This document shows, piece after piece, positions 12,767 to 62,084 of a stretch of DNA of 64,000 nucleotides (positions are counted from its first letter, which is position 1; each line of letters opens with the position of its first letter). The position numbers were made by a program, and so were the translations under genes. Under the pieces are notes generated by a model. It was given only the letters and a program-made list of their open reading frames with translations, did no database searches and was not told the origin of the DNA. The stretch comes from Gilvibacter sp. SZ-19. Lineage in GTDB: Bacteria; Bacteroidota; Bacteroidia; Flavobacteriales; Flavobacteriaceae. The stretch covers positions 1,742,864 to 1,806,863 of the forward strand of contig NZ_CP019333.1 of NCBI RefSeq assembly GCF_002163875.1, read 5' to 3'.

Positions 12767-12819
12767 ATCAGCTATTAATCGGGCTGAATTTTTAAGTTTT
12801 TGTTTTAGTATAATATTTA

Positions 12820-13422: not shown

Positions 13423-13493
13423 TTTTGGTTTGATTTAATTTGTTAAAATTAAAGACTGTTGCAGACCTTTATCTGCATAACTTTCGTTGATAT

Positions 13494-34151: not shown

Positions 34152-34408
34152 AAAATATAAGTATACATCATCGATTAAAAGAAAAAGGATTTACCTTAAA
34201 TAATCTTTCCAATTAGGGAAAGGCTTTAGAGGTTGAAAATCTTTTTTCTTTTAGAGGTTGATAGATTCAAAAAAATTGATTGCTAGCCTGCAAAAGATTC
34301 TTAACGAGAATGGTAGATTGAATATTTCCCAAAAACTACATTTACTTTTAGAATATAACATTTGAGATTTTAAGTTATAGTTAATTTGAATGATTTGTTA
34401 GTTTTTTT
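34152..34408. other. Intergenic stretch before the mer operon
   Basis: No coding sequence of note. It contains a 12-base direct repeat TTTAGAGGTTGA at about 34225 and 34250 and a C-poor, AT-rich run. No clear hairpin-T-run terminator for the DUF305 gene was found. The promoter of the next gene begins at 34409. Confidence 0.5.
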
Positions 34409-34449
34409 ATTTAAGCATTTGCTTAAATAATAATATAAGTATAAATTTG
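34409..34449 (+). promoter_or_regulatory. Promoter with ArsR-type operator for the mer operon
   Basis: ATTTAAGCA-TT-TGCTTAAAT (34409-34428) is a perfect 9-2-9 palindrome of the kind bound by ArsR/SmtB repressors. It covers a -33 TTTG (34418-34421). A -7 TAAATTTG (34442-34449) follows after 20 bases, matching the Bacteroidota consensus, and the regulator ATG is 14 bases further on. Repressor binding would block the -33 element directly and be relieved by Hg(II) or another metal. Confidence 0.7.
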
Positions 34450-34463
34450 CTAAAATTTTAATT

Positions 34464-34835
34464 ATGGCTCTTGAATTAAGTTGCACCCGTGCCGAGGCAG
34501 ACCAAAAGCAGTTGATGCGTTGTCGTAACATTTTGAATACAACCTCAGAATTAATCAATAGTGTTGGCAAGGTACTGGCCCTGGCAGGTAATGAGACCAG
34601 ACTGAAGATACTTTTCCTGCTAAACGAGGAAGGTGAGCTTTGTCCTTGTGATTTTTCAGATATACTGCAAATGAGTGTCCCAGCAATTTCACAACACATT
34701 CGAAAGATGAAGGATGCCGGATTAATTTCTTCGAGACGAGATGGTCAAACGTTGTATTACTCTTTGGTCAAAGATTCAAGCGAGGTATTGGAAGGAATTT
34801 TCGGCAGGCTTAAAGAAAACAAAAAAGTAGCATAG
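34464..34835 (+). CDS. ArsR/SmtB-family metal-responsive repressor of the mer operon
   Basis: This 123-residue winged-helix protein contains LALAGNETRLKILFLLNEEG and CPCDFSDILQMSVPAISQHI, where the CPC in the recognition-helix region fits the ArsR/CadC soft-metal site; an N-terminal Cys (ELSCTRAEADQK) may be a third ligand. It is followed 1 base later by merTP, so it acts in place of MerR, as known for Bacteroidota mer operons. An overlapping palindromic operator is upstream. Mercury specificity is inferred from the operon. Confidence 0.88.
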   Translation: MALELSCTRAEADQKQLMRCRNILNTTSELINSVGKVLALAGNETRLKILFLLNEEGELCPCDFSDILQMSVPAISQHIRKMKDAGLISSRRDGQTLYYSLVKDSSEVLEGIFGRLKENKKVA

Positions 34836-34836
34836 A

Positions 34837-35466
34837 ATGAATATGGAAAAATCATCAAATACAGTAGCGTACACTGGAATAATTTCAGCAATAGCGGCAT
34901 CAATATGCTGCATAACCCCAGTTTTGGCATTGATTGCTGGCACAAGCGGAATTGCCTCAACTTTCTCTTGGATAGAACCTCTCAGACCTTATTTAGTAGG
35001 GCTAACGATTTTGGTGCTTGGTTTTGCTTGGTATCAAAAACTAAAACCCCAAAAAGAAATTGACTGTGAATGTGAGACAGATGACCTGCCTGCCAGCAAG
35101 GCAGGAAGGCCTAAATTTATTCAATCAAAAACCTTTTTAGGAATAGTAACTCTACTTGCTATAATAATGTTGGCTTTCCCATACTATTCAGGGATTTTTT
35201 ATCCAAGTACAGAAAAGCAAATAATCGTAGTTGACAAATCAGACATTAAAACCACTGAATATAAAATCAGCGGAATGACCTGCACGGGTTGTGAAGAACA
35301 CGTAAACCACGAAATAAACAAACTCAATGGAATTGTACGTTCAAAAGCATCCTACGAAAACGGAAATGCAATCGTTGAGTTTGACAAAACAAAAACTAAT
35401 GAAACGGAAATCGAGAAAGCAATTAACGCCACAGGTTATAAAGTAATTCATAAAGAAAATAAATAG
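34837..35466 (+). CDS. merTP: Mercuric transport fusion protein MerTP
   Basis: This 209-residue protein takes Hg(II) through the inner membrane to MerA. The MerT part has helices with the vicinal cysteines (AASICCITPVLALIAGTSGI) and a cytosolic DCECET pair. After the third helix comes a MerP/HMA domain (YKISGMTCTGCEEHVNHEI near residue 145). The linker after DCECETDD carries extra residues (LPASKAGRPK) encoded by a palindromic insert absent from the second MerTP at 38357. It is tightly packed with ArsR upstream and a MerP-like gene 2 bases downstream. Confidence 0.9.
   Translation: MNMEKSSNTVAYTGIISAIAASICCITPVLALIAGTSGIASTFSWIEPLRPYLVGLTILVLGFAWYQKLKPQKEIDCECETDDLPASKAGRPKFIQSKTFLGIVTLLAIIMLAFPYYSGIFYPSTEKQIIVVDKSDIKTTEYKISGMTCTGCEEHVNHEINKLNGIVRSKASYENGNAIVEFDKTKTNETEIEKAINATGYKVIHKENK
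35085..35105. repeat. Palindromic mini-insert inside merTP
   Basis: Arms CCTGCC (35085-35090) and GGCAGG (35100-35105) flank TGCCAGCAA, a hairpin like short GC-rich palindromes scattered in Flavobacteria genomes. It lies in-frame in the linker between MerT and MerP and codes for about seven residues (LPASKAG) that have no counterpart in the second MerTP copy. Confidence 0.55.
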
Positions 35467-35468
35467 TT

Positions 35469-35828
35469 ATGAATAAATTATTAGTTCTACCAATTCTTGT
35501 ATTGTCATTAATTTCATTTCAGCTAAATGCTCAATGTTGCCCAACTTCAAAAAGCGATAAAAAGGTCACAATAAACAATAATCAACAAACAGTGAAAATA
35601 GTTAAATTTAAAATCACTGGTATTACTTGTGCAGGGTGTTCCAATACTATTTATAAGGCACTTAAAGAAGCTAATGGGATAATCGAACATTCAGTTAAAT
35701 ATCCTGGTGATATAGCCATTATTGAGTTTGATGACACAAAAACCAGCATTGAGGCCTTAAAAAAGGTTATCGAAAAGAAAGGTTATAAAGTAAAAGTTGT
35801 AAAAGAAAATATTGAAGGGAAAGCCTGA
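35469..35828 (+). CDS. Exported HMA-domain protein (MerP-like)
   Basis: A 119-residue protein with a signal peptide (LPILVLSLISFQLNAQ), then CCPTSKSDKK and an HMA domain (VKFKITGITCAGCSNTIYKAL near residue 53; final KKGYKVKVVKEN). The CxxC loop binds one soft metal ion. It follows merTP after 2 bases, so it probably scavenges Hg(II) in the periplasm and passes it to MerTP. The extra N-terminal CC may add a ligand. Confidence 0.88.
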   Translation: MNKLLVLPILVLSLISFQLNAQCCPTSKSDKKVTINNNQQTVKIVKFKITGITCAGCSNTIYKALKEANGIIEHSVKYPGDIAIIEFDDTKTSIEALKKVIEKKGYKVKVVKENIEGKA

Positions 35829-35915
35829 TTTATTAAACTTCCACATTTAAAATATACGAATCTATCAATGAAAAATATAAGTCTACTAGTCTAGAGCCTT
35901 AATAAAAATCAAGCT

Positions 35916-37619
35916 ATGTCAGTAAATAAAGAAACCGTAATATTGAAAATCAACGGAATGACCTGTAGTGGATGCTCATCACATATCGAAAAAGATATGA
36001 ACGCAAAAGGTGGCGTTATAAGCAGTGCTGTAAATCACGAAACGGGAATAGGAGAATTTACTATTGATACTAATAAAATGGGTAAAAAAGAATTAATCAA
36101 TGCCGTAAATGCCATTGGCGATTATTCTGTCCTTAATAAAGTTGAAAAGAAAACCACTACTGTTTCAAATTCGGAGAATACTACTATGAAAGATAGTTTC
36201 AACGATAAAAACGATTACGATTTAATTATCATTGGAGGTGGTTCTGCAGCGTTTTCAGCAGCGATAAAAGCCGAAGGTTTAGGACTTAAAACACTAATGA
36301 TAAATGGCGGGTTGGATTTTGGAGGCACTTGTGTAAATGTTGGTTGTGTCCCTTCCAAAAATTTGATTAGGGCTGCCGAAACCGCATATCACGCTACACA
36401 TTCAAATTTTAAAGGGATTAAACCAAAAGGAGTCAATATTGATTTTGCACAAGTTATAAAAGACAAAAAAGCATTGGTTACTGCATTACAACAGCAAAAA
36501 TATATTGATGTTGTAAGCGATTTTGAAAATCTAACAATGCTAAAGGGATGGGCTCAATTTGTAAATAAGAATACTATTATTGTTGATGACCAGGATACAT
36601 ATACAGCTACTAACATTGTTATAGCAACTGGAGCTACTACAAACATTCCAAATATTGAAGGTTTAAATGACGTTGGCTACTTAACCAATGTATCATTGTT
36701 CGACTTAAAAGAAAAACCTGAAAGCCTTACTATTATGGGGGCAGGTTATATTGGCTTGGAAATTGCTCAAGCTTACAGCCGATTCGGGGTAAAAGTTAGA
36801 ATTATTGAATTTACGGACAGACCTTTAAGAAGTCAAACAAGTGATATAACAGATGTTTTAGTCCAGCAATATAAAAAGGAAGGTATAGAAATTCTTCCAA
36901 ATTTCAGAGCCTTAAAATTTGAAAAATCAGGAGCCGATATAATTATTCAGTGTACTTGTCCTGATGGCTCAACTACACAATTAATTGAAAAAGGACATAT
37001 TGTTGTTGCGACAGGAACAAAACCAAACACTTCAAAATTAGGTTTAGAAAATCTGGATTTAAAACTAACAGAAAGAGGTCACATTATGGTTAATGCAAAA
37101 ATGGAAACGAATATTTCCAATATTTACGCAGCAGGTGATGTAACCAATACACCTGCGTTTGTTTATACCGCAGCAACCGAAGGCAGTACTGCAGTAAATA
37201 ATGCCTTTTCACTATTAAAAAATAGTGTAGATTATACATCGTTACCTTGGGTAGTATTTACTGACCCGCAAATTGCAGGAGCGGGAATAGATGAGGTAGA
37301 AGCAGAAAAAAAAGGCATACCTTTTGAAGTATCTAAACTAGAATTAATTCACGTTCCAAGGGCATTGGCTGCCCAGGATATTAGAGGATTTATAAAGTTA
37401 ATTCGTAATACCGAAACTGATAAATTAATAGGTGCAAGAGTCATAGCACCTGAAGGTGGTGAACTTATACAGCAATTAAGTATAGCTATTAAGTTTGGTA
37501 TTACTGTAAAAGATTTGGCTGAAAGTTTTTATCCCTACTTAACTTTAAGTGAAGGAATCAAATTAGCGGCAATTACCTTTGGAAAAGATGTTTCTAAATT
37601 GAGTTGCTGTGCGAGTTAA
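35916..37619 (+). CDS. merA: Mercuric reductase
   Basis: The 567-residue flavoenzyme reduces Hg(II) to Hg(0) with NADPH. An N-terminal HMA domain (LKINGMTCSGCSSHIEKDM near residue 15) is followed by a FAD/NAD reductase core with IIIGGGSAAFSAAIKA near 103 and the redox-active GGTCVNVGCVPSKN near 136-149. TIMGAGYIGLEIAQAYSRFG is the NADPH motif. The C terminus ends KLSCCAS, the vicinal Cys pair that delivers Hg to the active site and separates MerA from dihydrolipoyl dehydrogenase. It has one HMA domain, normal for the family. Confidence 0.95.
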   Translation: MSVNKETVILKINGMTCSGCSSHIEKDMNAKGGVISSAVNHETGIGEFTIDTNKMGKKELINAVNAIGDYSVLNKVEKKTTTVSNSENTTMKDSFNDKNDYDLIIIGGGSAAFSAAIKAEGLGLKTLMINGGLDFGGTCVNVGCVPSKNLIRAAETAYHATHSNFKGIKPKGVNIDFAQVIKDKKALVTALQQQKYIDVVSDFENLTMLKGWAQFVNKNTIIVDDQDTYTATNIVIATGATTNIPNIEGLNDVGYLTNVSLFDLKEKPESLTIMGAGYIGLEIAQAYSRFGVKVRIIEFTDRPLRSQTSDITDVLVQQYKKEGIEILPNFRALKFEKSGADIIIQCTCPDGSTTQLIEKGHIVVATGTKPNTSKLGLENLDLKLTERGHIMVNAKMETNISNIYAAGDVTNTPAFVYTAATEGSTAVNNAFSLLKNSVDYTSLPWVVFTDPQIAGAGIDEVEAEKKGIPFEVSKLELIHVPRALAAQDIRGFIKLIRNTETDKLIGARVIAPEGGELIQQLSIAIKFGITVKDLAESFYPYLTLSEGIKLAAITFGKDVSKLSCCAS

Positions 37620-37629
37620 AAAATTTGGT

Positions 37630-38015
37630 ATGAAAAAAGAGTCACATAAATTACCATCCGATTTAATTTTAGATATTAAAACAAGACTTAAAACATTAAG
37701 CGGCAGATAAATGGAATCGTAAAAATGCTCGATGAAGGCAAAGACCCTGAACAAATAAACATTCAATTCAAGTCCATTGATAAAGGAATCCAAAAAGCAC
37801 ATTATTTACTGTTAGACGAAGTGTATCGCAAAGCACTCGCAATTGGAATCGTAAATGCAGTTGACTCTTGCCCCGGAAACTGTGGCAATGAAGATAAAAT
37901 TGATTACCTAAAACGTGAATTCCCCAACTTGGAATTGTCCGACTTGACAGATAAATTGAAAGAAATACAAACCATTGAAAACAGGTTAAAAGACTACAAC
38001 AAAAAAAAAGTCTGA
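37630..38015 (+). pseudogene. Metal-sensitive repressor (CsoR/FrmR family, DUF156), frameshifted
   Basis: From the ATG at 37630 the frame reads KKESHKLPSDLILDIKTRLK then TLSGR and stops after 23 residues. In the next frame the protein goes on without a break: QINGIVKMLDEGKDPEQINI, then LLDEVYRKALAIGIVNAVDS and CPGNCG. Joined, they give a complete CsoR/FrmR helical repressor of about 128 residues. Loss of one base (in AGCGG-CAG near 37702) explains it. The second part (from ATG 37725) could be translated alone but would lack helix 1. The tail cysteines (CPGNCG) extend the usual family. Confidence 0.85.
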
Positions 38016-38021
38016 AAAAGA

Positions 38022-38055
38022 TTTGTTTACCCCCTACCTTCCGTTCTCATCTTTG
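38022..38055 (+). promoter_or_regulatory. Candidate promoter with C-tract operator before the second mercury module
   Basis: TTTG at 38022-38025 and CATCTTTG at 38048-38055 (one mismatch from TAnnTTTG) are spaced 22 bases apart. Between them lies TACCCCCTACC (38028-38038), an interrupted C-tract flanked by TA, as seen in operators of the CsoR/FrmR class. The gene just upstream is a (broken) regulator of that class. It lies 30 bases before the thioredoxin-like gene. Confidence 0.45.
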
Positions 38056-38084
38056 TTCTATTATTAATTTAAACTTTTAATAAG

Positions 38085-38354
38085 ATGAAACGACAAATCG
38101 AAATTTTTACAGCAGGTTGTACAGTTTGCGAGCCTGTGGTACATTTAGTAAAAGAGACAGCAGGAAAAGACTGCGAAATAACACTTCATAACTTATCTGA
38201 GCAATGCGAAAGTAAAATCTGTGTGTCAAAAATGAAGGAATATGGAGTTAAAAGAGTTCCCGCGATTGCTGTTAATGGAAAACTATTAGATTGCTGTACA
38301 AACATCCAAATTACAAAAGATGATTTGACCAATGCAGGAATAGGAAACTGTTAG
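38085..38354 (+). CDS. Thioredoxin/glutaredoxin-like small protein
   Basis: This 89-residue protein begins KRQIEIFTAGCTVCEPVVHLV, a thioredoxin-fold with a CTVC active-site-like pair near residue 12. KRVPAIAVNGKLLDCC carries the conserved cis-proline and a further CC pair, and it ends with GNC. It has several more cysteines than normal glutaredoxins (QCESKIC), suggesting a metal-thiol role. Similar proteins accompany mer genes. It starts the second module and is followed 2 bases later by merTP2. Confidence 0.8.
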   Translation: MKRQIEIFTAGCTVCEPVVHLVKETAGKDCEITLHNLSEQCESKICVSKMKEYGVKRVPAIAVNGKLLDCCTNIQITKDDLTNAGIGNC

Positions 38355-38356
38355 GT

Positions 38357-38967
38357 ATGGCAATCATTAAATTGGACAAAAAAGCATCGTTGGGAACTGC
38401 TATGTTTTCAGCAGTTTCCCTAAAGCTTTGCTGTTGGGGACCACTTCTATTTACGGGAGTTGCGGGTATTAGCGGAAGCTCAATATATTTCTCTTGGCTC
38501 ATTGCCCTAAAACCTTATTTGTTGGCAGTTGCATTCTTGTCATTGGGCTTTGCTTTTTATCAAGTTTATAAAAAGAAGAAAGTTGATTGCGGTAACTGTG
38601 AAACTGATAAACCATCATTTTTTAAATCAAAAATCTATGTTTGGTGGTTGCTGTGTTTGTGGTTATAATGACATTAGCTTCATATTATCCTCAAATATTC
38701 CATCAAACTAACGGAAATGAAATAGTGATTGTAAATCAAACAGATATTCAATCCGTAAAGTTAAATATTGAAGGGATGGTGTGTCAAGGTTGTGAAACCA
38801 ACATTAATAATTCTGTGAATAAAATTGATGGTGTAATACAAGTCAAATCATCCTATGAAAAAGGTACTTCCGTAATTGAATTTGATGTGACCAAGACAAA
38901 TGTCGATGACATAAAAAAAGTGATTCTATCAAAAGGATATGTAATTAATAAGAATAAAAATGAGTAG
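38357..38967 (+). pseudogene. merTP: Second MerTP, split by a single-base frameshift
   Basis: The first frame (38357-38668) codes for MerT helices (FSAVSLKLCCWGPLLFTGVA with the CC pair, DCGNCET) and stops at WWLLCLWL. The next frame (from 38641) continues as VVAVFVVIMTLASYYPQIF, then the HMA part LNIEGMVCQGCETNINNSV, and ends at 38967. Joined, it matches MerTP at 34837 in order and length. One missing G in TTTGG-TGG (about 38643-38647) accounts for the break. It overlaps the downstream gene by 8 bases. It is a real mutation or a sequencing error. Confidence 0.85.
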
Positions 38968-39730
38968 ACTAATAATATTAATAGGTGTACTTGCCACAAC
39001 ATCAGTATTTGCACAAGGCCCACCAATTACAACAGAAACACCTATAATGCTTGGATTGGAAGGAAATGGAATTAGGACTTTTGGTAAACTCATATCCAAG
39101 GAAAATGCCACTATTTATGTGCAACCAATAGGCATTCCTTATAACATTACTTCAAAGTTTCAAGTGGGCGGAATATTTCCGTTCAGGTTCATAACACCTA
39201 AAGGAGCAGAAACAACAGGAGGCTTTGCAGATATGACGGTATTTGCCAAATACCAACTTTACAAAAAAGATGGAAAAGCCAAAACCTTTAGAATTTTGGG
39301 AATGGTTAAACAAACATTTCCCACAGGAAAAACGTCATCAATTCCTGCCATTGGTTCGGGACTTTATCAAACCTACGTTGGTCTTGTAATCGGGAAGTTA
39401 ACAACCAAAAAAGGACTTTATGCTGATTTTGGATATAACATTACCAACAAAAATGCTTCGGATAATTTTTTGTATAATTTTTCAATTGGCGTGCCTTTGT
39501 TGCCACACAAATATCCGCAAAAACAGCTAAATACGTATTTAGAATTCAATGGCAATTATGTTTTCGACCCAAAAATACATACACTTTTTATATCGCCAGG
39601 ACTTCAATTTATCCCTGGAAGAAGAATATTGTTTGAAACCAGTTTTCAGATTCCGATAGTTCAAAACAACATAACGACCAATAAAACAGAGTATATGGTT
39701 TTATTGGGCACACGATTTTTATTAAACTAA
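38960..39730 (+). CDS. Outer-membrane beta-barrel protein of the second mercury module
   Basis: This 256-residue exported protein (signal SRLIILIGVLATTSVFAQ) has alternating amphipathic strands throughout (FQVGGIFPFRFITPKG; FADMTVFAKYQLYK; FLYNFSIGVPLLPHK) and ends in a strand with a terminal aromatic/hydrophobic pattern (VLLGTRFLL). This suggests a small outer-membrane barrel of the MetA-pathway/transporter type. It may let Hg(II) or an organic mercury ligand reach MerTP. No named family was recognised with certainty. Confidence 0.7.
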   Translation: MSRLIILIGVLATTSVFAQGPPITTETPIMLGLEGNGIRTFGKLISKENATIYVQPIGIPYNITSKFQVGGIFPFRFITPKGAETTGGFADMTVFAKYQLYKKDGKAKTFRILGMVKQTFPTGKTSSIPAIGSGLYQTYVGLVIGKLTTKKGLYADFGYNITNKNASDNFLYNFSIGVPLLPHKYPQKQLNTYLEFNGNYVFDPKIHTLFISPGLQFIPGRRILFETSFQIPIVQNNITTNKTEYMVLLGTRFLLN

Positions 39731-39741
39731 AAAATAAGATT

Positions 39742-40095
39742 ATGAAGAATATATTTAAGCAAATAGGATTATTAGCTTTAATACTATTATTTTCAATGGC
39801 AAGCAGTACGGCAGTAAATGCACAAACCAGTGAGCAAGAGCTCACTTATGTAAAGGTTGAAGTTAAAGGATTGGCGTGTCCTTTTTGTGCTTATGGTTTG
39901 GAAAAGAAGCTAAAAGAAACCGATGGCGTTAAAAACATTAAAATTAATGTTGAAGAAGGGATAGCATATTTAACTGTGCTGAAATCCAAAAAACCAGCAA
40001 AGAAAATGCTTGAAAAAATTGTCACTGATGCAGGATTCACACCAAGTAGCATCGTTTTTTCTGAAAATCCTTTTGAGATGAAAGATGAAAATTAA
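39742..40095 (+). CDS. Exported HMA-domain protein
   Basis: A 117-residue protein with a signal peptide (LLALILLFSMASSTAVNAQ) and an HMA-like domain KVEVKGLACPFCAYGLEKKL near residue 40. The loop has CPFC in place of the usual CxxC with small residues, which may change the metal preference. It overlaps the next gene's start by 11 bases, so they are coupled. It is probably a periplasmic mercury or copper carrier. Confidence 0.82.
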   Translation: MKNIFKQIGLLALILLFSMASSTAVNAQTSEQELTYVKVEVKGLACPFCAYGLEKKLKETDGVKNIKINVEEGIAYLTVLKSKKPAKKMLEKIVTDAGFTPSSIVFSENPFEMKDEN

Positions 40096-40912
40096 CATCA
40101 TGTCTTTTTTTCTTGGATTGCTTGTAATTTCAGGGTGTCATGAAAATAAGAAAAAGAAACAGGAAACCACAAGCTGGAAATTCAGCAAGGAAATTCCGTT
40201 AGAGAATGTTTCACCTATAGGCATTGTTTCACAAAATAATTTCCTTTGGCTTTCGGATGTCGATAACAATCGTGTTGTAAAAGTTGACTTGGATGGAAAT
40301 ATCCTTGAAGCATTTAATGGTCTTCAACGCCCCATGCACATGGCAATTAAAGAAGGTAAAATCTATGTTCCCGAATACACATCAGACAGCTTAAAAATTA
40401 TTGAAAACGGAAATGTTTCAACTCTCGAATTAAAAGAAAATACTGATGGAATTGGTGGAGTATCTGTTTTTGGAAATACTGTTGCTATTGCTGATTTTTA
40501 CAATCATCAAATCATTTTACAACAAGAGGATAAAGTAATAATTTTAGGAACAGAAGTGCATGATGATGGTGAGCTATACTATCCAACAGATGTTGAAATG
40601 AGCGATGATTTAATCTACGTTGCTGATGCATACAACAATCGTGTTCAGGTATTTGATTTTGAAGGCAATTATGTAAGAATGATTGGTTGGAATGAAAGCA
40701 TTAAGGTCGCAACAGGTTTAAAAGTAACAGATTCACAAGTTATCGTTGCCGATTTTGAAGGTAACCGAGTTTTGATTTACGATTTAAATGGTAAACTTTT
40801 ACAAATTGTATCGGGCAAATTCAATCAACCAACAGATATTGAAATTGTAAATGGTACAATGTATGTGGTTAATTATAAAGGGAAAGCTATTTCTATACTA
40901 GAAAAACGATAA
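40085..40912 (+). CDS. NHL/beta-propeller lipoprotein
   Basis: A 275-residue lipoprotein (signal SFFLGLLVISGCHE, Cys near residue 18) followed by NHL-type blades: FLWLSDVDNNRVVKVDLDGN, LIYVADAYNNRVQVFDFEGN and VIVADFEGNRVLIYDLNGK. These form a six-bladed propeller, usually a protein- or ligand-binding surface. It is co-transcribed with the HMA protein. Its role in metal resistance is unknown. An alternative start lies at 40100. Confidence 0.82.
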   Translation: MKINIMSFFLGLLVISGCHENKKKKQETTSWKFSKEIPLENVSPIGIVSQNNFLWLSDVDNNRVVKVDLDGNILEAFNGLQRPMHMAIKEGKIYVPEYTSDSLKIIENGNVSTLELKENTDGIGGVSVFGNTVAIADFYNHQIILQQEDKVIILGTEVHDDGELYYPTDVEMSDDLIYVADAYNNRVQVFDFEGNYVRMIGWNESIKVATGLKVTDSQVIVADFEGNRVLIYDLNGKLLQIVSGKFNQPTDIEIVNGTMYVVNYKGKAISILEKR

Positions 40913-40965
40913 AAGTGCAGAAATTCTTTTACTCATCTATTGAGGTTATTACTTAAAGTGCACCG

Positions 40966-41023
40966 AAATTTTACAACTCTTTCAGCAAATAACGTAATAG
41001 CTTTCTCGTGTTCTGTCCCGAAA
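40966..41023. repeat. 58-base near-repeat, copy A (partner 57456-57513)
   Basis: This block matches 57456-57513 at 51 of 58 positions, and all seven differences are transitions. It begins AAATTTTACAACTCTTTCAGC and ends CCGAAA. Copy A overlaps the start of the GDCCVxC gene; copy B lies just before the copA gene. On the minus strand both are open and read FGTEHEKAITLFAERVVKF / FGIEHGKAVTLFAERVVKF, so a decayed gene end is one possible origin. Confidence 0.6.
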
Positions 41024-41256
41024 ATTGTATAGTAAAAATCGTACGAGGAAATGAAAATTCAAATAGATATAAAATAACTTGCCCAAACTGCGGGCATAAA
41101 AAAATAGAGGAAATGCCAACGGAGTCCTGTCAATTCTTTTACGAATGTGAGAATTGTAAAAAAGTATTACGACCAAAAGAAGGCGATTGTTGTGTTTATT
41201 GCTCCTATGGAACAGTTCCTTGTCCACCAATTCAAGAAAACAAATATTGTTGCTAA
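41008..41256 (+). CDS. GDCCVxC domain-containing protein
   Basis: The family signature is EGDCCVYCSYGTVPCPPIQ near the C terminus, preceded by KITCPNCGHKKIEEMPTESC and YECENCKKVLRPK, a zinc-ribbon-like Cys set. I use the GTG at 41008 (82 residues); no in-frame ATG exists upstream of the conserved part, and a stop (40990-40992) closes the frame just before. This family sits near mercury genes and in some species is a selenoprotein; here the codons are ordinary TGT/TGC. It probably binds a soft metal. Confidence 0.8.
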   Translation: MFCPENCIVKIVRGNENSNRYKITCPNCGHKKIEEMPTESCQFFYECENCKKVLRPKEGDCCVYCSYGTVPCPPIQENKYCC

Positions 41257-41298
41257 CATCTGAACAATCTTTGCACAACCTGTGCATCGATTAATTTG

Positions 41299-41306
41299 TA
41301 TCTTTG
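41299..41306 (+). promoter_or_regulatory. -7 element (TATCTTTG) of the czc operon
   Basis: TATCTTTG matches TAnnTTTG exactly and lies 9 bases before the ATG at 41316, so the transcript has almost no leader, as also seen at 17287-17294. A TTTG at 41270-41273 is 25 bases upstream, longer than optimal, so the promoter may need an activator. Confidence 0.5.
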
Positions 41307-41315
41307 TTAAAATTT

Positions 41316-41711
41316 ATGAAAACACTTTTTTCCATATCAATGTCGCTATTATTCTTTTTTCAGGGAATTAGTCTTGATATGGATTTTTGTGGACCCATAA
41401 AAGAAATTTCAAACATCGTAACCCATTATCAGAAACATAAAGTTTATGGTGACTCTTTCCTCGATTATCTAATTGAGGATTACTTTGGTAAGGAAGCAAA
41501 AGATGAAAGGCACCACAATGACTCTGATAAGGAGAGTGCACCTGTACATAGCCATCATCAATGTTGTCACCCCTTAGTTTTGTTTGCTGCAAATAAAAAT
41601 ACCGATACAACAAATTGGTTAAAGTTTGAAGATAGAAAGCAATTTAGCCTATATAAAGTAAACTTCGCTTCCAGATATCTGGAATCCCTATTCCAGCCCC
41701 CTAAAGTATAA
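41316..41711 (+). CDS. HYC_CC_PP-like exported protein (diverged)
   Basis: The ATG at 41316 gives a signal helix (KTLFSISMSLLFFFQGISL); an earlier start at 41304 is in the promoter. DMDFCGPIKE replaces the HYC motif, HSHHQCCHPLVLF near residue 88 holds CC, and it ends SLFQPPKV. It also has a His/Asp-rich stretch (DERHHNDSDK). Like the other copies it precedes an RND pump gene. It is likely a periplasmic metal-binding partner, here for Zn/Co/Cd. Confidence 0.7.
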   Translation: MKTLFSISMSLLFFFQGISLDMDFCGPIKEISNIVTHYQKHKVYGDSFLDYLIEDYFGKEAKDERHHNDSDKESAPVHSHHQCCHPLVLFAANKNTDTTNWLKFEDRKQFSLYKVNFASRYLESLFQPPKV

Positions 41712-41817
41712 TTCAGTTTTTTAAAGGATAGCTATATCCTATCGTGATGCTTTTTAAAATAAATATCACATTATAAACGCATTGCATCTATTTGCATTGC
41801 GAGGTTTAAACTGAATT
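41710..41817 (+). promoter_or_regulatory. Inverted-repeat leader between HYC_CC_PP-like gene and czcA
   Basis: Arms AATTCAGTTT (41710-41719, overlapping the upstream stop) and AAACTGAATT (41808-41817) are perfect complements. The right arm ends 12 bases before the czcA ATG. Inside are AGGATA-GCTA-TATCCT (41725-41740) and GTGAT...ATCAC (41744-41768), and a direct repeat GCATTGC. The layout parallels the leader at 17721-17812 although the sequences differ. Confidence 0.55.
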
Positions 41818-41829
41818 AATACTTTCTCT

Positions 41830-44800
41830 ATGATTAACAAAATCATTTCATTTTCCATTAATAACAAGTTTATTATTGGGCTCTTTATAGTGGCGCTTGT
41901 GGGTACGGGCATTTGGTCTATGGCCACTATAAACTTGGGTTCTGTACCCGACATTACCAACAACCAAGTACAGGTTATTACTGTTGCCCCAAATTTAGGT
42001 ACTGAAGATATTGAGCAATTTGTTACCTATCCAGTAGAATTGGCAATGGCAAATCTGCCTGACGTTATCGAGCTACGTTCCGTATCCCGATTTGGGCTGT
42101 CTGTGGTTACCATTGTCTTTGAGGATGAAGCAGGCACCTACCTGCCCCGGCAATTGGTGCAAGAAAAATTAGCCGAAGTTGCAGGTGAAATCCCCGAAGG
42201 CTTCGGCGAGCCATTTATGGCACCCATAACTACAGGTTTGGGCGAAATATTCCAATATACCTTAAAAGTAAAGGAAGGCTACGAAGAAAAATACGATGCA
42301 ATGGAGCTTCGTACCATTCAGGATTGGATTGTAAAGCGCCAAATGGCATTAGTTCCTGGAGTAGTTGAAGTTAATGCTTTTGGAGGCTACGTAAAGCAGT
42401 ACGAAGTGGCAATAAATCCTGACAAACTTAAAAGTTTTGGCATTACAATGAATCAGGTTTTTGAAGCCCTGAAGATGAACAATGCCAATACAGGTGGTGC
42501 CTACATCGAGAAAAACCACCAAGCCAATTTTATTCGTGGCGAGGGTTTAGCACGTAGCCTTGAGGACTTGGAAAACACTGTTGTAACCACTCAAAACGGA
42601 AGTCCAGTGTTGATAAGGGACGTTGCCGAAAAAGTAGGTTTTGGCAATCAAGTGCGCTATGGTGGGTTTACCCAAGATGGTCACGAAACTGTTGGTGGCC
42701 AAATTTTAATGCTTAAAGGTGAAAGCCCTGGCACTGTCATAGAAAATGTACAGGAGCGCATCGGCGAAATTCAAAAATCGCTTCCAGAAGGTGTTTATAT
42801 CGAACCTTTTTTAAGTCGTAGTGAACTCATTGGAAGAACAACAAGTACCGTAGAAACAAATCTTATTGAAGGTTCGCTTATCGTGATTTTTGTACTGGTA
42901 TTACTCTTGGGAAGTTTCCGTGGCGGATTGATAACAGCCTCTGTAATTCCGCTATCATTACTCTTTGCATTCATTTTGATGAAGCAATTTGGCGTGTGGG
43001 CCAATTTAATGTCCTTGGGAGCAATCGATTTTGGAATCATTGTGGATGGTGCAGTTATTATTGTAGAAGGAATGGTATTCCACATCCATCAACGGATGAA
43101 AAAATCAAAAGCAGCGATAGGTCAGGCCGAAATGGACGAAATCGCCTACGACTCGGCAAGTACAATGATGAATTCGGCATTTTTCGGACAGCTAATTATC
43201 CTTATCGTATTTACACCGATTCTCTTTTTGACCGGTGTTGAAGGAAAAATGTTCCGTCCAATGGCGTTTACTTTCGGATTTGCAGTTTTGGGAGCCATTA
43301 TCCTTTGTCTTACCTACGTGCCAATGATTTCGTCAATGTTTCTCAAACCTGCCAAAAATCAGAATAGTTGGTTTGCCAGATTTGAAAACAAAATTGACAG
43401 GTTCAGTGATAAAATAATGTCCGGTTTAAACAGGGCGTATGTTCCCTTGCTCAATTTTGCACTTCGCTTTAGAGCTGGTGTGGTTATAGGTGCAGTCGCC
43501 TTATTATTGATTGCAGGATATATTTTCAGCAATATGGGTGGCGAATTCATACCCAAATTTGATGAGGGCGATATTGCATTTCAGGCCTTGATAAAACCAG
43601 GTAGTAGTCTTACAGAATCTATAGAGGCATCAAAAAAACTTCAAAATTTAATCAATGAATTTCCTGAAGTAAAAACAGTGGTTTCCAGAATAGGGGTCGC
43701 CGAAATTCCTACCGACCCAATGCCGATGGACATTGCCGATAGCTATATCATTCTTGAAAAGGATAAGAGCAAATGGACCAGTGCAGAGAGCAAGGACGAA
43801 CTCATAGAAAAAATACAGGAAAAAATTTCAGTGGTTCCCGGTGTGAATTTCGTGTTTACGCAACCCGTGGAACTTCGTTTTAACGAATTGCTAACGGGTG
43901 TTCGTGAGGATGTGGCCATAAAGTTATATGGGGAAGATTTGGGCGTATTGGCAGACAAGGTTCAAGAAATCGCCGCGGTCATTAGGAGTGTTCCCGGAGC
44001 GGCCGACCTCAATGTGGAAGCTACGAGCGGTTTACCACAGATGACGGTAGCATACAATCGTGCAAAAATGGCTCAGTATGGAGTAACTGTTGATAAGCTA
44101 AATGATTATGTAAGTGCTGCATTTGCGGGAGAATCGGCAGGTGTGATTTTTGAGGGCGAAAAACGCTTTGATGTGGTTATTCGTTTGGCGAAAGAGTTTA
44201 GGCAAGACATTAATAATCTTAAAAATCTGTATATCGACCTACCAAGTGGTGCACAAGTACCTTTAAAAGAAGTTGCAAATATAAGTTACAAACCAGGGCC
44301 AATGCAGATTTCAAGAGACAACACCTCGCGCCGTATTTCGGTAGGTGTCAACGTTCGTGGACGTGATGTAAAATCGATGGTTGAAGAAATTCAGCAAAAA
44401 TTGGAAACAGATGTAAAACTGCCACCGGGCTATTTTGTAACCTACGGGGGTTCGTTCGAGAACTTACAGCGTGCATCAGACCGATTGATGATTGTAGTAC
44501 CTATCGCACTTTTTCTGATATTCATTTTGCTCTATTTCGCTTTGAGCTCGTTCTCACAATCACTAATGATTTATATGGCAGTGCCTCTGGCAGCCATTGG
44601 CGGAGTGTTTGCCCTTTGGATAAGGGGGATGCCATTCAGTATTTCAGCAGGAGTCGGTTTTATTGTACTCTTTGGGGTAGCGGTATTAAATGGATTGGTA
44701 CTGATAAACAAATTCAATGAACTAAAAGAAAGTGGAATGACAGACTTAAAAAAACGAATATACGAGGCAACGCACGAGCGCCTACGCCCTATTTTATTAA

Positions 44801-46233
44801 CGGCAACGGCGGCCATTATGGGCTTTATCCCTATGGCGCTTTCTACTTCGGGCGGTGCAGAAGTGCAGCGACCATTGGCAACGGTGGTAATTGGAGGATT
44901 GCTCACAGCAACATTTTTAACACTTGTGGTCCTTCCAGTCTTGTATTATTGGTTGGAAGCTCGTAAGCAACGAAAGGATAACGGTAACGACCCAAGCTAT
45001 ATTAACAAGAGCACTACTGTTTTGGTTGTGCTATTGAGCTTGGGAGGATTTTTAACCTCAAATTCAGTAAATGCGCAAGATAGCGGAATAGCACAGACTG
45101 TTACTTTGGAGGAAGCTATTTCTTTGGCAAAAGAAAATTATCCTTCCCTTAAGGAAAGTCAGTCTTTTATAGACCGTGAGCGGGCGATGAAAGGAACAAG
45201 TTTCGACCTTGGTAGCACGCAAATTTTTACGGGCAAGGAAGAATTCGGTAATGACCTGCCCGGTGTGCAAACTACCATTGGGGTTCAGCAGGGAAATATC
45301 GATTTGTTATCTGGTTTCTCAAAATCCAAGTTCTATAAGCAACGTGTTCAGTTGGGTGAGAAGTTTTATGCCCTGAGCGAGCAACAATTAGTGCGTAATG
45401 TGATGCAAGCCTATGACCAGATAAATTATAACAAAGCCCAGTTGCGCTTCGCGGAGCAGTTAGATAGTGTGTATAACAACTTCAAGACAGCCGCAGAACT
45501 ACGTTTTGATACTGGTGAAACTGGGAAGCTGGAATTTATCGCGGCTTCTTCTGAATATCAACAGATACAGGTCTTGAGACAACAGGCCTATGACGATATC
45601 GAGATTGCCAAAAGGGCGCTTAAACAGTATTTGGGGATTGACCAAGAAATTGAAACCGTTGGAGGTACTTACGAACCGTTGAATTATATGAGCGTTATAG
45701 ATTCAACATCCATAGACAATAATCCATTGTTGCAATATTCTATGCAAAATGCCGAGGTGAGCAAAGCCAACGTTGGGGTAGAAAAATCCCAGTTTCTGCC
45801 AAAGTTCAATTTGACCTATGGAAGACAAATCGTTGACGATGTTTCAGGGTTCAACACCTATCAAGCAGGTATAAGTATTCCGTTGTGGTTCTTTCCTCAA
45901 AAAGCAAGGGTCAAGGCTGCTAAAGCAGATGCTTTGGTGGCCGAGAACCAATATTTGGAACAAAAGGCAATAACCGAAAGCAGGGTGTCACAATTGTTAA
46001 AATCATTGGAAAAAACCCAAAAAACGCTGAATTATTACCAAGAAGGTGCACTGGTTTTGGCCGAAGAGCAGATTACAACTGCAGAACTTGCTTCCAAAGA
46101 AGGCGAGATAGACTATGTAAACTATATCACGATTTTAAACAGTGCCATTCGCATAAAACAGAACCACTTACAATTTATTAACCAGTATAATCAACAAGCC
46201 ATTGAGTTACAGTATCAATTGGGCAATTTATAA
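41830..46233 (+). CDS. czcA: CzcA-type heavy-metal RND pump fused to a TolC-family (CzcC) domain
   Basis: At 1467 residues it joins a full RND pump (1 to about 1045) to an outer-membrane TolC domain (about 1075 to 1467; VTLEEAISLAKENYPSLKES, LRFDTGETGKLEFIAASSEY). The pump has DFGIIVDGAVIIVEGMVFH, the DFGxxxDGA signature of the Zn/Co/Cd (CzcA) group. Between the parts lies VLVVLLSLGGFLTSNSVNAQ, a perfect signal peptide, so the TolC part may be cleaved and released after translation. Such fusions are common in Bacteroidota. The adaptor gene follows after 20 bases. Confidence 0.92.
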   Translation: MINKIISFSINNKFIIGLFIVALVGTGIWSMATINLGSVPDITNNQVQVITVAPNLGTEDIEQFVTYPVELAMANLPDVIELRSVSRFGLSVVTIVFEDEAGTYLPRQLVQEKLAEVAGEIPEGFGEPFMAPITTGLGEIFQYTLKVKEGYEEKYDAMELRTIQDWIVKRQMALVPGVVEVNAFGGYVKQYEVAINPDKLKSFGITMNQVFEALKMNNANTGGAYIEKNHQANFIRGEGLARSLEDLENTVVTTQNGSPVLIRDVAEKVGFGNQVRYGGFTQDGHETVGGQILMLKGESPGTVIENVQERIGEIQKSLPEGVYIEPFLSRSELIGRTTSTVETNLIEGSLIVIFVLVLLLGSFRGGLITASVIPLSLLFAFILMKQFGVWANLMSLGAIDFGIIVDGAVIIVEGMVFHIHQRMKKSKAAIGQAEMDEIAYDSASTMMNSAFFGQLIILIVFTPILFLTGVEGKMFRPMAFTFGFAVLGAIILCLTYVPMISSMFLKPAKNQNSWFARFENKIDRFSDKIMSGLNRAYVPLLNFALRFRAGVVIGAVALLLIAGYIFSNMGGEFIPKFDEGDIAFQALIKPGSSLTESIEASKKLQNLINEFPEVKTVVSRIGVAEIPTDPMPMDIADSYIILEKDKSKWTSAESKDELIEKIQEKISVVPGVNFVFTQPVELRFNELLTGVREDVAIKLYGEDLGVLADKVQEIAAVIRSVPGAADLNVEATSGLPQMTVAYNRAKMAQYGVTVDKLNDYVSAAFAGESAGVIFEGEKRFDVVIRLAKEFRQDINNLKNLYIDLPSGAQVPLKEVANISYKPGPMQISRDNTSRRISVGVNVRGRDVKSMVEEIQQKLETDVKLPPGYFVTYGGSFENLQRASDRLMIVVPIALFLIFILLYFALSSFSQSLMIYMAVPLAAIGGVFALWIRGMPFSISAGVGFIVLFGVAVLNGLVLINKFNELKESGMTDLKKRIYEATHERLRPILLTATAAIMGFIPMALSTSGGAEVQRPLATVVIGGLLTATFLTLVVLPVLYYWLEARKQRKDNGNDPSYINKSTTVLVVLLSLGGFLTSNSVNAQDSGIAQTVTLEEAISLAKENYPSLKESQSFIDRERAMKGTSFDLGSTQIFTGKEEFGNDLPGVQTTIGVQQGNIDLLSGFSKSKFYKQRVQLGEKFYALSEQQLVRNVMQAYDQINYNKAQLRFAEQLDSVYNNFKTAAELRFDTGETGKLEFIAASSEYQQIQVLRQQAYDDIEIAKRALKQYLGIDQEIETVGGTYEPLNYMSVIDSTSIDNNPLLQYSMQNAEVSKANVGVEKSQFLPKFNLTYGRQIVDDVSGFNTYQAGISIPLWFFPQKARVKAAKADALVAENQYLEQKAITESRVSQLLKSLEKTQKTLNYYQEGALVLAEEQITTAELASKEGEIDYVNYITILNSAIRIKQNHLQFINQYNQQAIELQYQLGNL

Positions 46234-57346: not shown

Positions 57347-57455
57347 CATACAAAAAAAGCGCATAGAGAAAATGTTTTAAAAGCATAGTTGGTATATTGA
57401 ATAATTTAATTTAAAGAGGTATTAGAAACCAACTAATAAAAGAAAATGAATGAGC

Positions 57456-57513
57456 AAATTTTACAACTCTTTCAGCGAATAATGTAACAGCTTTTCCGTG
57501 TTCTATTCCGAAA
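57456..57513. repeat. 58-base near-repeat, copy B (partner 40966-41023)
   Basis: See copy A. Copy B ends 27 bases before the copA start codon at 57541. It differs from copy A only by seven transitions. It may be a shared upstream control element or the end of a mobile or decayed gene. Confidence 0.6.
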
Positions 57514-57540
57514 TTTGTGAAATACAAAACGGAGTAATAA

Positions 57541-59799
57541 ATGGAGGCAACCAATATATTCAATACCAAACCCAAAGAACAAAAAACAGGCATAAAAAAA
57601 TCCTTTCCTGTTACGGGTATGACCTGTGCCGCCTGTGCCAGCAGTGTTGAGTCGATTCTTTCCCATACCGATGGCGTAAACAAGGCCATCGTAAATTTTG
57701 CCAGCAATTCGGTTTTAGTCGATTACGATGAAACCATTTCTGAAGAAAAACTTCAGAACGCACTGCGTGAAGTGGGCTATGATATCATTATCGATGCAGA
57801 AGACCCAATGGAAGCACAACAAGAGCTTCAACAAAAGCATTACCAAGACATTAAAAACCGTACCATTTGGTCAGCTATTCTGACACTGCCCATCTTCATA
57901 CTTGGAATGTTCTTTATGCAATGGGAACCTGGTAAGTGGATTTCTTTGGTATTGGCTATTCCCATTCTCTTCTGGTTTGGGCGTAGTTTTTTTATCAATG
58001 CTTTCAAACAGGCCAAACGTGGCAAGGCGAATATGGATACCTTGGTGGCTTTAAGTACGGGCATTGCATTTTTGTTTAGTGTGTTCAATACCTTATTTCC
58101 GGAATTTTGGTTAAATCGTGCTATTGAGCCACACGTTTATTACGAAGCGGCGACAGTGATTATTACCTTTATTTCTTTGGGGAAATTACTGGAAGAAAAA
58201 GCCAAATCGAATACTTCTTCGGCCATTAAAAAATTAATGGGATTACAACCTAAAACGCTTAAAGTTATTGATAATGGGGAAGAAAAAGAAATTCGTATTT
58301 CGGCTGTGCAAGTAGGTCAAACTATTTTAGTCCGCCCTGGAGAAAAGATTCCCGTAGATGGGAAAGTTATTAAAGGAAGCTCATATGTAGACGAAAGTAT
58401 GATTACAGGTGAACCTGTTCCAGTACAAAAGTCCAGAGAAGAGAAGGTATTTGCTGGTACTGTCAATCAAAAAGGTAGTTTTCAATTTACTGCAGAAAAA
58501 GTTGGAGGTGAAACCCTGCTTTCCCAAATCATAAAAATGGTACAGGAGGCACAGGGTAGCAAAGCACCCGTACAAAAATTGGTCGATAAAATTGCTGGAA
58601 TATTTGTTCCCATCGTATTGGGGATATCCATTGTTACCTTCATCGTCTGGATGTCTGTGGGAGGTGATAATGCGTTTTCTCAAGCTTTATTGACTTCTGT
58701 CGCTGTACTAGTCATTGCCTGTCCTTGCGCCCTAGGGTTGGCTACACCTACTGCTATTATGGTGGGTATTGGCAAAGGTGCCGAAAATAATATCCTTATA
58801 AAAGATGCCGAGAGTTTAGAACTCGGTCATAAAGTTAATGCTATCATCCTTGATAAAACTGGCACTATTACCGAGGGAAAACCATTGGTGACCGATATGC
58901 ATTGGAAGCGTACACTTGAAAATAAAAATGAATTTAAACAGTTGCTTTTAGCAATAGAAGCCCAGTCTGAACACCCCTTGGCAGAAGCAGTTGTTAATCA
59001 TTTTAAAGAAGAAAATATTGAAAAAGTTGAAATTGCTTCTTTTGAAAGTATTACGGGTAAAGGTGTGCAAGCTAAAACAGAAAATGGCTCACAATACTAT
59101 GTTGGAAACCATAAATTAATGCTTGAGAAGAATATACAAATTGATGCTTCCTTGATGCAAACAGCAGAAAGTCTTGAAGAGCAAGCAAAAACCGTCATAT
59201 TCTTTGGTAATGAAAAAGATGTATTGGCGATACTTGCTATTGCAGACAAAATAAAGGAAACTTCAAAAATAGCCATTGCAACACTTCACGAAAGGGACAT
59301 TGATGTCTATATGCTAACAGGTGATAATAATAAGACAGCATCAGCCGTAGCCCAACAAGTGGGAATAGCAAATTTCCAAGGGGAAGTAATGCCTTCTGAT
59401 AAAGCAACCTTTGTGAAAAAATTGCAGTCTGATGGTAAAATAGTAGCTATGGTAGGCGATGGTATCAACGATTCCCACGCCTTGGCGCAAGCCGATGTCA
59501 GCATTGCAATGGGAAAAGGTTCCGACATCGCGATGGACGTTGCAAAAATGACCTTGATAACTTCAGATTTACAGTCAATTTCCAAAGCATTGAAACTATC
59601 AAAGAAAACCGTTATGGGTATTCGCCAAAATCTGTTTTGGGCATTTATATACAACATCATTGGCATCCCGATAGCTGCAGGTGTGCTATATCCCATCAAT
59701 GGCTTTTTGTTGGACCCAATGATAGCAGGAGCTGCAATGGCATTCAGTAGTGTATCGGTCGTAGCCAATAGTCTGCGCTTAAAACAAGTAAAACTTTAA
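57541..59799 (+). CDS. copA: Copper-exporting P-type ATPase (CopA)
   Basis: The 752-residue exporter has one HMA domain at the N terminus ([20 protein letters not shown] near residue 24), [20 protein letters not shown] near 393 with the Cu(I) CPC motif, [12 protein letters not shown] near 439, EHPLAEAVV near 480 and [20 protein letters not shown] near 637. The C-terminal [15 protein letters not shown] and [15 protein letters not shown] (Met-Ser-Ser type) mark the Cu(I)/Ag(I) PIB-1 group. It exports cytosolic copper. The CopZ gene follows after 20 bases. Confidence 0.95.
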
Positions 59800-60869: not shown

Positions 60870-62084
60870 TTAAAAATTAACTACACTGTCTAGAGCATCA
60901 TCAGCTTCCTTATGGATAAAATTTGCTTGATAATTCAAAGTTGTTTTTAAATCACTATGTCTATAAAGTTTTTGCAGCATTAATGGATGAATGGTATCAC
61001 CTGCAATATTGCCAAAAGTATGTCTAGCAATGTGCATTGTTATCTTCTTATCTATTTTTGCTTTTTTGCCAATTGATTTTAAGTTATCATTGAATTTTTT
61101 TGTCGCCGTTTTTCTTTTATTATAGATATCCTTAGCGTCATTGAGATTAGCCTTTTTTAATTCGGGAAAAACAAAATCAGTGTCAAATCTCTTATCATTT
61201 CTATAGTAATTCAAAATACTTTGGACCTTATCTGGAATTTTTAAGGACAATAATTTTGAATTTTTATTCATTCTATAATGTAACCGGTCATCATATATGT
61301 CCGACCATTTTGTCCAAAGCACATCTGTAACGCGCATTCCTGCAAAATTGAAGCTAAATAGCCAAACGTTTCTTGTATGAATTTCATTGTAGGTTAGATT
61401 ATCTAAAGCTTCAATAGCTCTTACCTCAATAATATTCAACCCTATTTTTGTCGTCTCAGGAAACTTGATTTTAATTTTGTCACCACCGAAAGGATATAGT
61501 TCCCTACTGACTATTTTTAGCTTTATAGCTCTGTTGAATAATAAGCGGATTAGGACAAGTATATTCATTATTGAAGTCTCAGCAAGGTGGTGCTTAACTT
61601 TGAGGTATATCATCAATTTTTTAAGAAATCGTTCATCAATTTCTTGAAATGAAAGTTGTTTAGATTTGTGATATTTTACAATATAACTAATCAATGCGCT
61701 GTCCGTAGATAGACGGTTTAACTTTTCTGCAACTTTCAGTTCGTCCAGATGTTCTTGTGCCAGCTCAAAGAAAGTTGAGGAATTCCCTGACGCATATATT
61801 TCTTTTTTAATTTGGTTTGCTGAGGCATCTTTATACTCAGACTGTAAATCGATAAGAGCCTTATTGGCATCAGAAAGTTGTTGTGATAGCAACTTGTTTA
61901 GGTTATCAGCATTTGGATTTGTTTTTTTTACTCGAAGATTTTTTTCGTCCCATTCCTCTAAATCGATATAATGACCAACATACTGATAGGTAGAGCGACG
62001 GTTTTTTGTGATTCGAATAGCTAATGGATATTGACCTTTAACGTTCGGTTTTTTACGAAGAACTATTTTTGCATTTGATGACAT
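60870..62084 (-). CDS. int: Tyrosine recombinase/integrase of the island
   Basis: The 404-residue protein has an N-terminal arm-binding domain (KIVLRKKPNVKGQYPLAIRI; YQYVGHYIDLEEWDEKNLRV), a SAM-like core-binding domain, and the catalytic set: Arg in FNFAGMRVTDVLWTKW, HIARHTF (HxxR), and LYRHSDLKTTLNYQ with His and the nucleophile Tyr. It resembles Bacteroidota integrative-element integrases. It lies next to the att site, reading inward to the island, with four arm-type repeats upstream. It probably excises and inserts this island at tRNA-Leu. Confidence 0.93.
   Translation of the reverse strand: MSSNAKIVLRKKPNVKGQYPLAIRITKNRRSTYQYVGHYIDLEEWDEKNLRVKKTNPNADNLNKLLSQQLSDANKALIDLQSEYKDASANQIKKEIYASGNSSTFFELAQEHLDELKVAEKLNRLSTDSALISYIVKYHKSKQLSFQEIDERFLKKLMIYLKVKHHLAETSIMNILVLIRLLFNRAIKLKIVSRELYPFGGDKIKIKFPETTKIGLNIIEVRAIEALDNLTYNEIHTRNVWLFSFNFAGMRVTDVLWTKWSDIYDDRLHYRMNKNSKLLSLKIPDKVQSILNYYRNDKRFDTDFVFPELKKANLNDAKDIYNKRKTATKKFNDNLKSIGKKAKIDKKITMHIARHTFGNIAGDTIHPLMLQKLYRHSDLKTTLNYQANFIHKEADDALDSVVNF

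Follow-up and report, generated by a model that had tools for sequence, protein, structure and literature searches.

A barrel–HMA–NHL envelope cassette adjoins a second mercury-transport unit in Gilvibacter sp. SZ-19

What does an outer-membrane barrel do among mercury-resistance (mer) genes? The question is raised by a stretch of 64,000 nucleotides (hereafter the window), which spans 1.743–1.807 Mb of the single-contig 3.1-Mb genome of Gilvibacter sp. SZ-19 and in which every gene between 38085 and 41256 lies on the plus strand. These genes encode a small thioredoxin-like protein (TRX), a second MerTP fusion (MerTP2), a predicted outer-membrane barrel, a secreted HMA-domain protein, an NHL propeller lipoprotein and a GDCCVxC protein. 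The original prediction for this DNA had read them as a second mercury module, in which the barrel and the propeller may form an uptake route for mercury or organomercury that feeds MerTP. We propose, with a probability of about one half, that they represent a second mer operon (CsoR-like regulator, TRX and MerTP2) to which an exchangeable soft-metal envelope cassette (barrel, HMA and NHL proteins) has been joined at the 3′ end. Judged by sequence, barrel–HMA–NHL is a coherent cassette of its own, and CsoR-like–TRX–MerTP2 recurs as a second unit for mer transport; the composition, the recurring gene order, a separate promoter-like element, an ATPase that replaces the cassette in relatives and cassette copies away from mer are all evident at that level.

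Gene content of the second mer operon

The operon and the genes that follow it comprise these features:

37630–38015, plus strand: CsoR-family metalloregulator with a CPGNC motif, frame broken near 37704–37707
38022–38055, plus strand: putative promoter/operator with TTTG, ACCCCCT (38029–38035) and TCATCTTTG, conserved before the TRX gene
38085–38354, plus strand: small thioredoxin-like protein, TRX (Thioredoxin_3, 33.8 bits; cut-off 24.8)
38357–38668, plus strand: 5′ part of MerTP2, the MerT membrane part (NF033556, 65.3 bits, profile positions 2–85)
38641–38967, plus strand: 3′ part of MerTP2 in another frame, with the last membrane segment and the HMA domain (NF033556, 95.1 bits, positions 85–185)
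38960–39730, plus strand: predicted outer-membrane 12-strand beta-barrel of COG4313/FapF type (signal peptide by eye; structure model)
39742–40095, plus strand: secreted HMA-domain protein with Cys-Pro-Phe-Cys (PF00403, 26.6 bits; cut-off 24.8; signal peptide by eye)
40085–40912, plus strand: six-bladed NHL propeller lipoprotein, lipobox Cys18 (PF01436, 66.2 bits; cut-off 20)
40962–41036, plus strand: short AT-rich element, copy 1, after the NHL gene and before the GDCCVxC gene (core 40966–40997 by blastn, extent by eye)
41008–41256, plus strand: GDCCVxC protein (NF041374, 103.7 bits; cut-off 40)

Profiles or models upheld the TRX, barrel, HMA, NHL and GDCCVxC assignments that had first been made from the letters alone, and the overlaps of 8 bases between MerTP2 and the barrel (38960–38967) and of 11 bases between the HMA and NHL genes (40085–40095) are as predicted. 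MerTP2 is likewise present, as part of a second mercury transport module, but it occupies two open reading frames rather than one, and the CsoR-like regulator upstream had been missed.

Cysteines and a few other residues are strictly kept in the small proteins. TRX carries a CxxC and a C-terminal CC, with Cys12, Cys15, Cys70 and Cys71 invariant in 8 of 8 sequences; because no signal peptide is apparent by eye, it is probably cytosolic and would act there. The HMA protein has a CP[FY]C motif with both Cys invariant in 20 of 20, and by profile it is not a MerP (TIGR02052, 35.5 bits against a cut-off of 92.55). The NHL protein is modelled as a six-bladed propeller (pLDDT 86.2) in which Cys18, Met84, His85 and Asp169 are kept in 15 of 15 sequences and Asp251 in 14 of 15. 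It shares this architecture with TRIM71, Thin, PknD and the designed Pizza6, but differs from them in being a lipoprotein and in having His85, Asp169 and Asp251 at three blade starts, with Gly at the other three (G46, G125 and G211). Met84-His85, together with the blade-start residues, may form a metal site. The residues after the lipobox Cys are variable, and no clear signal for surface export was seen by eye.

In the mechanism that we favour, the barrel would pass soft-metal species across the outer membrane (Hg(II) here, and Cu(I) or Ag(I) in copies linked to HYC_CC_PP-like genes, described below), the HMA protein would carry the metal through the periplasm and the propeller would provide it with a docking site or help to handle the metal. 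The next step would fall to an inner-membrane protein with an HMA domain, MerTP2 in this operon, which in mer would pass the metal to TRX in the cytosol and to MerA. Which metal is handled would depend on the inner-membrane partner and the regulator. We infer both the direction of transport and the metal of the cassette; the scheme fits mercury import, and the cassette alone may handle copper or silver.

Known mer operons provide the closest comparison, and the papers cited here and below are cited from extracts. As in those operons, a MerTP fusion of the NF033556 family is present and an ArsR–MerTP–MerP–MerA module adjoins; the Gelidibacter mer operon, for example, comprises ArsR, MerT/P, MerA and a hypothetical protein (PMC10587081). 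What differs is the second, lower-scoring MerTP, the CsoR-like regulator, TRX, the barrel and the propeller, and the MerR-type regulator of classical mer is replaced here by ArsR in the first module and by a CsoR-family protein in the second. The mer components named in the extract of PMC8261052 include no outer-membrane protein, CsoR-like regulator, TRX, barrel or propeller, in line with the earlier view that barrel and propeller stand outside classical mer, and its Figure 1 legend has the outer membrane as a broken line with diffusion arrows. No such barrel is listed in the extract, including Table 1, of a Bizionia copper survey (PMC11213822), and we found no description of a barrel–HMA–NHL cassette in the open-licence PubMed Central literature searched.

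Structure of the predicted barrel

That the barrel is an outer-membrane channel, as first proposed, is supported by its structure model (pLDDT 68.5, from eight sequences), in which a count of the elements gives 12 strands. Its structural matches are FapF (5o65, Z 21.9), which ranks top in both comparison programs, the COG4313 channel Pput2725 (4rl8, Z 20.6) and PcoB (7pge, Z 14.5). The superposition on 4rl8 covers 220 residues with an rmsd of 2.8, the 12-strand feature itself resting on prediction. COG4313 channels (PF13557; Pput2725, SphA and TcpY) have 12 strands and an N-terminus folded into the lumen, are implicated in hydrophobic uptake and allow little passage of polar solutes (PMC4493636). 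The window barrel resembles these channels and FapF in its modelled 12-strand fold (Z 20.6–21.9), but is only 10–14% identical to them and differs in its metal-gene context and its QGPPI start. This mature start is invariant in 18 of 18 sequences and falls at the position of the COG4313 plug, in a part of the model (the first 30 residues) with a mean pLDDT of 42–57. The PF13557 profile gives 20.3 bits for the window barrel against a cut-off of 22, and 25.3 for the L003 orthologue (loci fetched for comparison are numbered L), with no match for the HYC-linked L047 barrel. With PcoB/CopB the barrel shares a predicted outer-membrane location and a setting among metal genes, but the structural match is far weaker and the family lacks conserved His or Cys; CopB was absent from its list of Pfam matches at E 0.1. 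A search of PHROGs gave no match, and the sole hit of the barrel profile in a PDB sequence search (E 0.22) was taken as chance. In L043, a second barrel-like protein (3304–4095, by eye) lies between MerTP2 and the HMA gene, with the usual barrel after the HMA gene; it had neither a Pfam nor an NCBIfam match.

The rank of FapF raises another possibility, that the barrel is a FapF-like secretion channel through which the HMA protein, or some other peptide, is exported so as to capture extracellular metal; an HMA gene directly after the barrel in most loci (see below) would fit such a role. The HMA domain is a small folded domain. FapF, by contrast, passes unfolded amyloid (PMC5557850), and the COG4313 channel trails it by just 1.3 Z. 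We consider export of this kind very improbable.

Distribution and phylogeny of the cassette

Barrel relatives were sought in draws of genomes that overlap and include the source genome: 299 genomes of the family (22 matches), 296 of the phylum (13 matches, some weak), 395 of the phylum searched with a profile (9 matches), 395 of the class (9 matches) and a genome-contig collection (8 loci). The resulting set holds 40 fetched loci with a barrel, or 41 with the window. It keeps a weak member, L090 (42 bits); L091 had no barrel at threshold, and the fragment L077 (genome G1003) and locus L096 stand outside the set. Some loci are nested, L010 within the L003 contig, L011 and L031 within L042, and L035 within L086. 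Among the weak hits L037–L041 (20–24 bits), a matching neighbour is present only in L041, where it is HMA-like (26% to MerP1).

Gene order, whose conservation the original prediction had named as a check, is indeed recurrent: leaving the window aside, the gene next after the barrel encodes an HMA protein in 36 of 40 loci (all but L042, L043, L084 and L090) and the HMA–NHL pair is found in 28 of 40, a recurrence that argues against chance. The wider neighbourhood is more varied. A merTP, merTP2 or merA gene lies within 7 kb in 12 of the 41 loci (the window, L003, L005, L006, L009, L042, L043, L059, L060, L061, L084 and L085), at distances from 2 bases to 6.4 kb; the farthest, L060, carries the label ‘other’ on our tree, whose mer limit is 6 kb. 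In another 18 loci, a HYC_CC_PP-like gene, called by phmmer to two NF047658-matching proteins (some with low scores), is directly upstream of the barrel. What comes next is HMA-MauE in 7 of these 18 copies (preceded in two by a PF03773 permease), a CopA-like ATPase in 5, a TonB receptor in 1, a sulfatase in 1 and unassigned genes in 4, so that 12 of the 18 are partnered by a CopA-like or HMA-MauE protein.

A barrel tree of 39 rows (midpoint root; the broken L009 and L042 barrels left out and L043 partial) separates the 18 HYC-linked rows and five others from the rest with support of 99/100. The HYC label needs 1 change on this tree (support 83/75), and L090 forms a very long branch. The side that holds the window barrel has 15 rows, of which 10 have merTP or merA no more than 7 kb away; a HYC-like gene immediately upstream is seen in none of them. 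The idea that mer-linked barrels form one clade was rejected, as the label needs 6 changes and shuffles average 7.4. The tie to merTP that had been predicted holds for much of the window’s side of the tree but loosens across all barrel loci: because 12 of 41 are near merTP or merA and 18 are HYC-linked, the genes are in part found away from merTP. Overall, the earlier observation is partly confirmed, and its interpretation as a mercury route partly supported.

The same distribution admits a different explanation, in which the cassette is a copper/silver envelope-detoxification module, working by export or by clearing the periplasm, that travels as neighbouring cargo in a mer island; its closeness to MerTP2 would then reflect co-regulation under soft-metal stress and not mercury uptake. 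The HYC-linked copies with their CopA-like and HMA-MauE partners are consistent with this idea, and the two PF03773 permeases weakly resemble SO_0444 Cu/Zn efflux (45–48 bits; cut-off 300). Nearer to home, L008, on the window’s side of the tree, has barrel, HMA gene and CopA-like ATPase in a row with a 4-base overlap, and the window itself holds two CusB-type genes, a CusA-like gene and a CopA-like ATPase. Against this, the window barrel belongs to the part of the tree that is separate from the HYC-linked copies and is mostly near mer, and in L059 and L084 the barrel adjoins merTP–merA, with gaps of 20–84 bases from gene to gene or a single HMA gene in the interval. On balance we hold this explanation to be rather unlikely.

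The transport unit without the barrel

In a search of 199 family genomes for MerTP, 51 gave matches above the cut-off. Among the matches listed, a second-type MerTP (lower-scoring and beside the first) occurs in eight genomes (G000, G083, G125, G030, G054, G074, G080 and G114). In the last five, represented by loci L133–L137, the CsoR-like, TRX and MerTP2 genes are followed by an ATPase and there is no barrel (5 of 5). G133 has weak, split MerTP matches, and no CsoR-like or TRX gene was seen in its fetched locus L138. Two further features of the window bear on this arrangement:

57447–57528, plus strand: short AT-rich element, copy 2, before the CopA-like ATPase
57541–59799, plus strand: CopA-like (IB1, CPC) P-type ATPase (TIGR01511, 614.5 bits; cut-off 397)

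The ATPases directly after MerTP2 in L133–L137 are 84–89% identical to the one at 57541–59799, and the short element found between MerTP2 and the ATPase of L133–L136 is present twice in the window. Because these barrel-less relatives share both sides of the island, the cassette of the window can be placed between MerTP2 and the position of the ATPase. L136 and L137 combine ArsR–MerTP–GDCCVxC with CsoR–TRX–MerTP2–ATPase, MerA being absent from the fetched stretch.

Several observations weigh against the explanation that we favour. The transport unit does without the cassette in these five of the eight genomes with a second-type MerTP (among the matches listed); conversely, 11 of 41 barrel loci, some on short contigs, have neither mer nor HYC neighbours, and in the mer-linked L005, L009, L059 and L084 no NHL gene was seen beside the HMA or barrel gene. 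No Cys or His reaches 70% conservation in the 18-row barrel alignment, the model is of middling confidence, and the nearest solved folds pass a polypeptide (FapF) or hydrophobic molecules, a shared fold showing no function in itself. CopA-type ATPases export, and some cassette copies adjoin CopA-like ATPases, which calls for caution on direction: metal in those copies would be expected to move outward, the reverse of transport by MerTP.

A broader reading, which we put forward tentatively, is that barrel–HMA–NHL could be a general, previously undescribed soft-metal conduit between outer membrane and periplasm in Bacteroidota, with the metal set by the inner-membrane partner (MerTP, CopA-like ATPase, HMA-MauE or PF03773 permease) and the mer copy switched by a CsoR relative that senses through CPGxC. 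If so, mercury resistance would have in the mer-adapted copy its first dedicated outer-membrane component. Because the cassette is coupled with MerTP in some Bacteroidota and with copper-type transporters in others, the outer-membrane crossing of soft metals is directly testable.

Regulation of the two mer modules

The first mer module lies immediately upstream:

34410–34427, plus strand: palindromic ArsR-type operator-like site TTTAAGCATTTGCTTAAA, before arsR
34464–34835: ArsR
34837–35466: MerTP1 (NF033556, 303.5 bits; cut-off 180)
35469–35828: HMA/MerP1
35916–37619: MerA, 82% identical to L003 MerA

MerA is directly upstream of the CsoR unit and outside that unit itself. The TTTAAGCATTTGCTTAAA pattern has two matches in the window, which are the two strands of one site (0.09 expected, allowing up to 2 mismatches); it also precedes arsR in L003 and L042, with one C/T change, and partly in L005.

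For the second module, CsoR structures are the best PDB sequence matches of the regulator family. Three relatives score 39.7–50.8 bits with PF02583 (cut-off 22.8), and the copy in the window, with one internal stop, scores 29.3. The proteins thus share the CsoR/RcnR profile but depart from that family at the metal site: the positions aligned to the Cys-His-Cys Cu(I) ligands of CsoR hold other residues, and the sole invariant Cys in 8 of 8 sequences are those of a CPGxC further along.

The element before TRX is read as promoter-like in the light of the Bacteroidota promoter consensus. Its arrangement of TTTG, ACCCCCT and TCATCTTTG is common to the window, L003, L042, L133–L136 and, over those bases that are determined, L137; L043 and L006 carry variants. 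In L085, ACCCCCT precedes the CsoR-like gene as well as TRX, and in L084 it lies between MerA and the barrel. Of the 8 loci with a CsoR-like gene, 6 have ACCCCCT in the 1.6 kb before the barrel (the misses are L043, with a one-base variant, and L061), compared with 2 of 32 without such a gene (Fisher value 1.8e-4, the relatedness of loci being ignored; L002, with no upstream sequence, was left out, and the upstream sequence of L008 and L080 is shorter than 1.6 kb). By itself the motif is weak, ACCCCCTRC having 1 match in the window against 0.55 expected, so its weight comes from position and recurrence. We infer that ACCCCCT is the operator of the CsoR-like protein. The two conserved upstream elements suggest two transcription units, an ArsR module and a module from TRX onward.

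Frame breaks in the second operon

At least two genes of the operon are broken in this genome. The CsoR-like gene aligns to its 128-amino-acid relatives in two tblastn pieces (37630–37707 and 37704–38009). MerTP2 loses its frame near 38644, giving pieces at 38357–38644 and 38644–38964 whose NF033556 matches are under the cut-off; in L003, L042 and L043 it is a single protein of 204–207 amino acids, and intact relatives score some above and some just below that cut-off. The GDCCVxC N-terminus is probably frame-broken as well, between about 41051 and 41074: three relatives align only from their residue 9 or 10 onward, and the candidate start ATG at 41051 sits in a different frame. As a control, nine genes from one stretch elsewhere in this genome (a second control stretch, L093, was left out) were set against those of a congener; all 9 were unbroken, although one ran into the end of the stretch. 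The breaks seem to cluster at the second mer operon, a pattern that both real decay and sequencing error would fit. With at least two of its genes broken, the operon is probably impaired in this genome, unless the breaks are sequencing errors.

Such decay could mean that the cassette is a genomic bystander, inert cargo of a mobile island beside a failing operon. A second genome with a broken mer region points the same way, G125 (L042), in which MerTP1, the barrel and the NHL protein are each split and no HMA gene was seen, as does L009, in which the barrel is split. The barrel, HMA and NHL genes are nonetheless open frames in the window and in most loci examined, and they are well conserved, which makes an inert cassette improbable.

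L006 has a 203-amino-acid SAM-dependent methyltransferase-like protein (1767–2378, by eye) between merTP and GDCCVxC, with no NCBIfam match at 1e-20.

Genomic setting

Involvement of organomercury through MerB was set aside as a candidate: a search of this genome with PF03243 gave no match, and nothing follows from this because the control genomes likewise gave none. Plasmid carriage was also set aside, as neither 34300–41720 (megablast) nor the barrel protein matched a plasmid collection, and so was viral carriage, as viral contigs held no barrel relative. A tRNA search of the window found none. An integrase at one end, a long minus-strand gene block at the other and, between them, CusB-type genes and P-type ATPases give the window the appearance of a mobile island for metal resistance. 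CusB-type and AraC-type genes to the left of the mer genes are both present in 5 of 5 barrel-less loci (L133–L137), and the right-end integrase is 95–96% identical to copies in L134 and L136 (2 of 5; the remaining stretches end or differ there). The outlying features are:

41830–46233: CusA-like gene (label by eye)
60870–62084, minus strand: integrase at the right end of the window, with Arm-DNA-bind_5, SAM-like and Phage_integrase domains
1–14075, minus strand: long block of minus-strand genes at the left of the window

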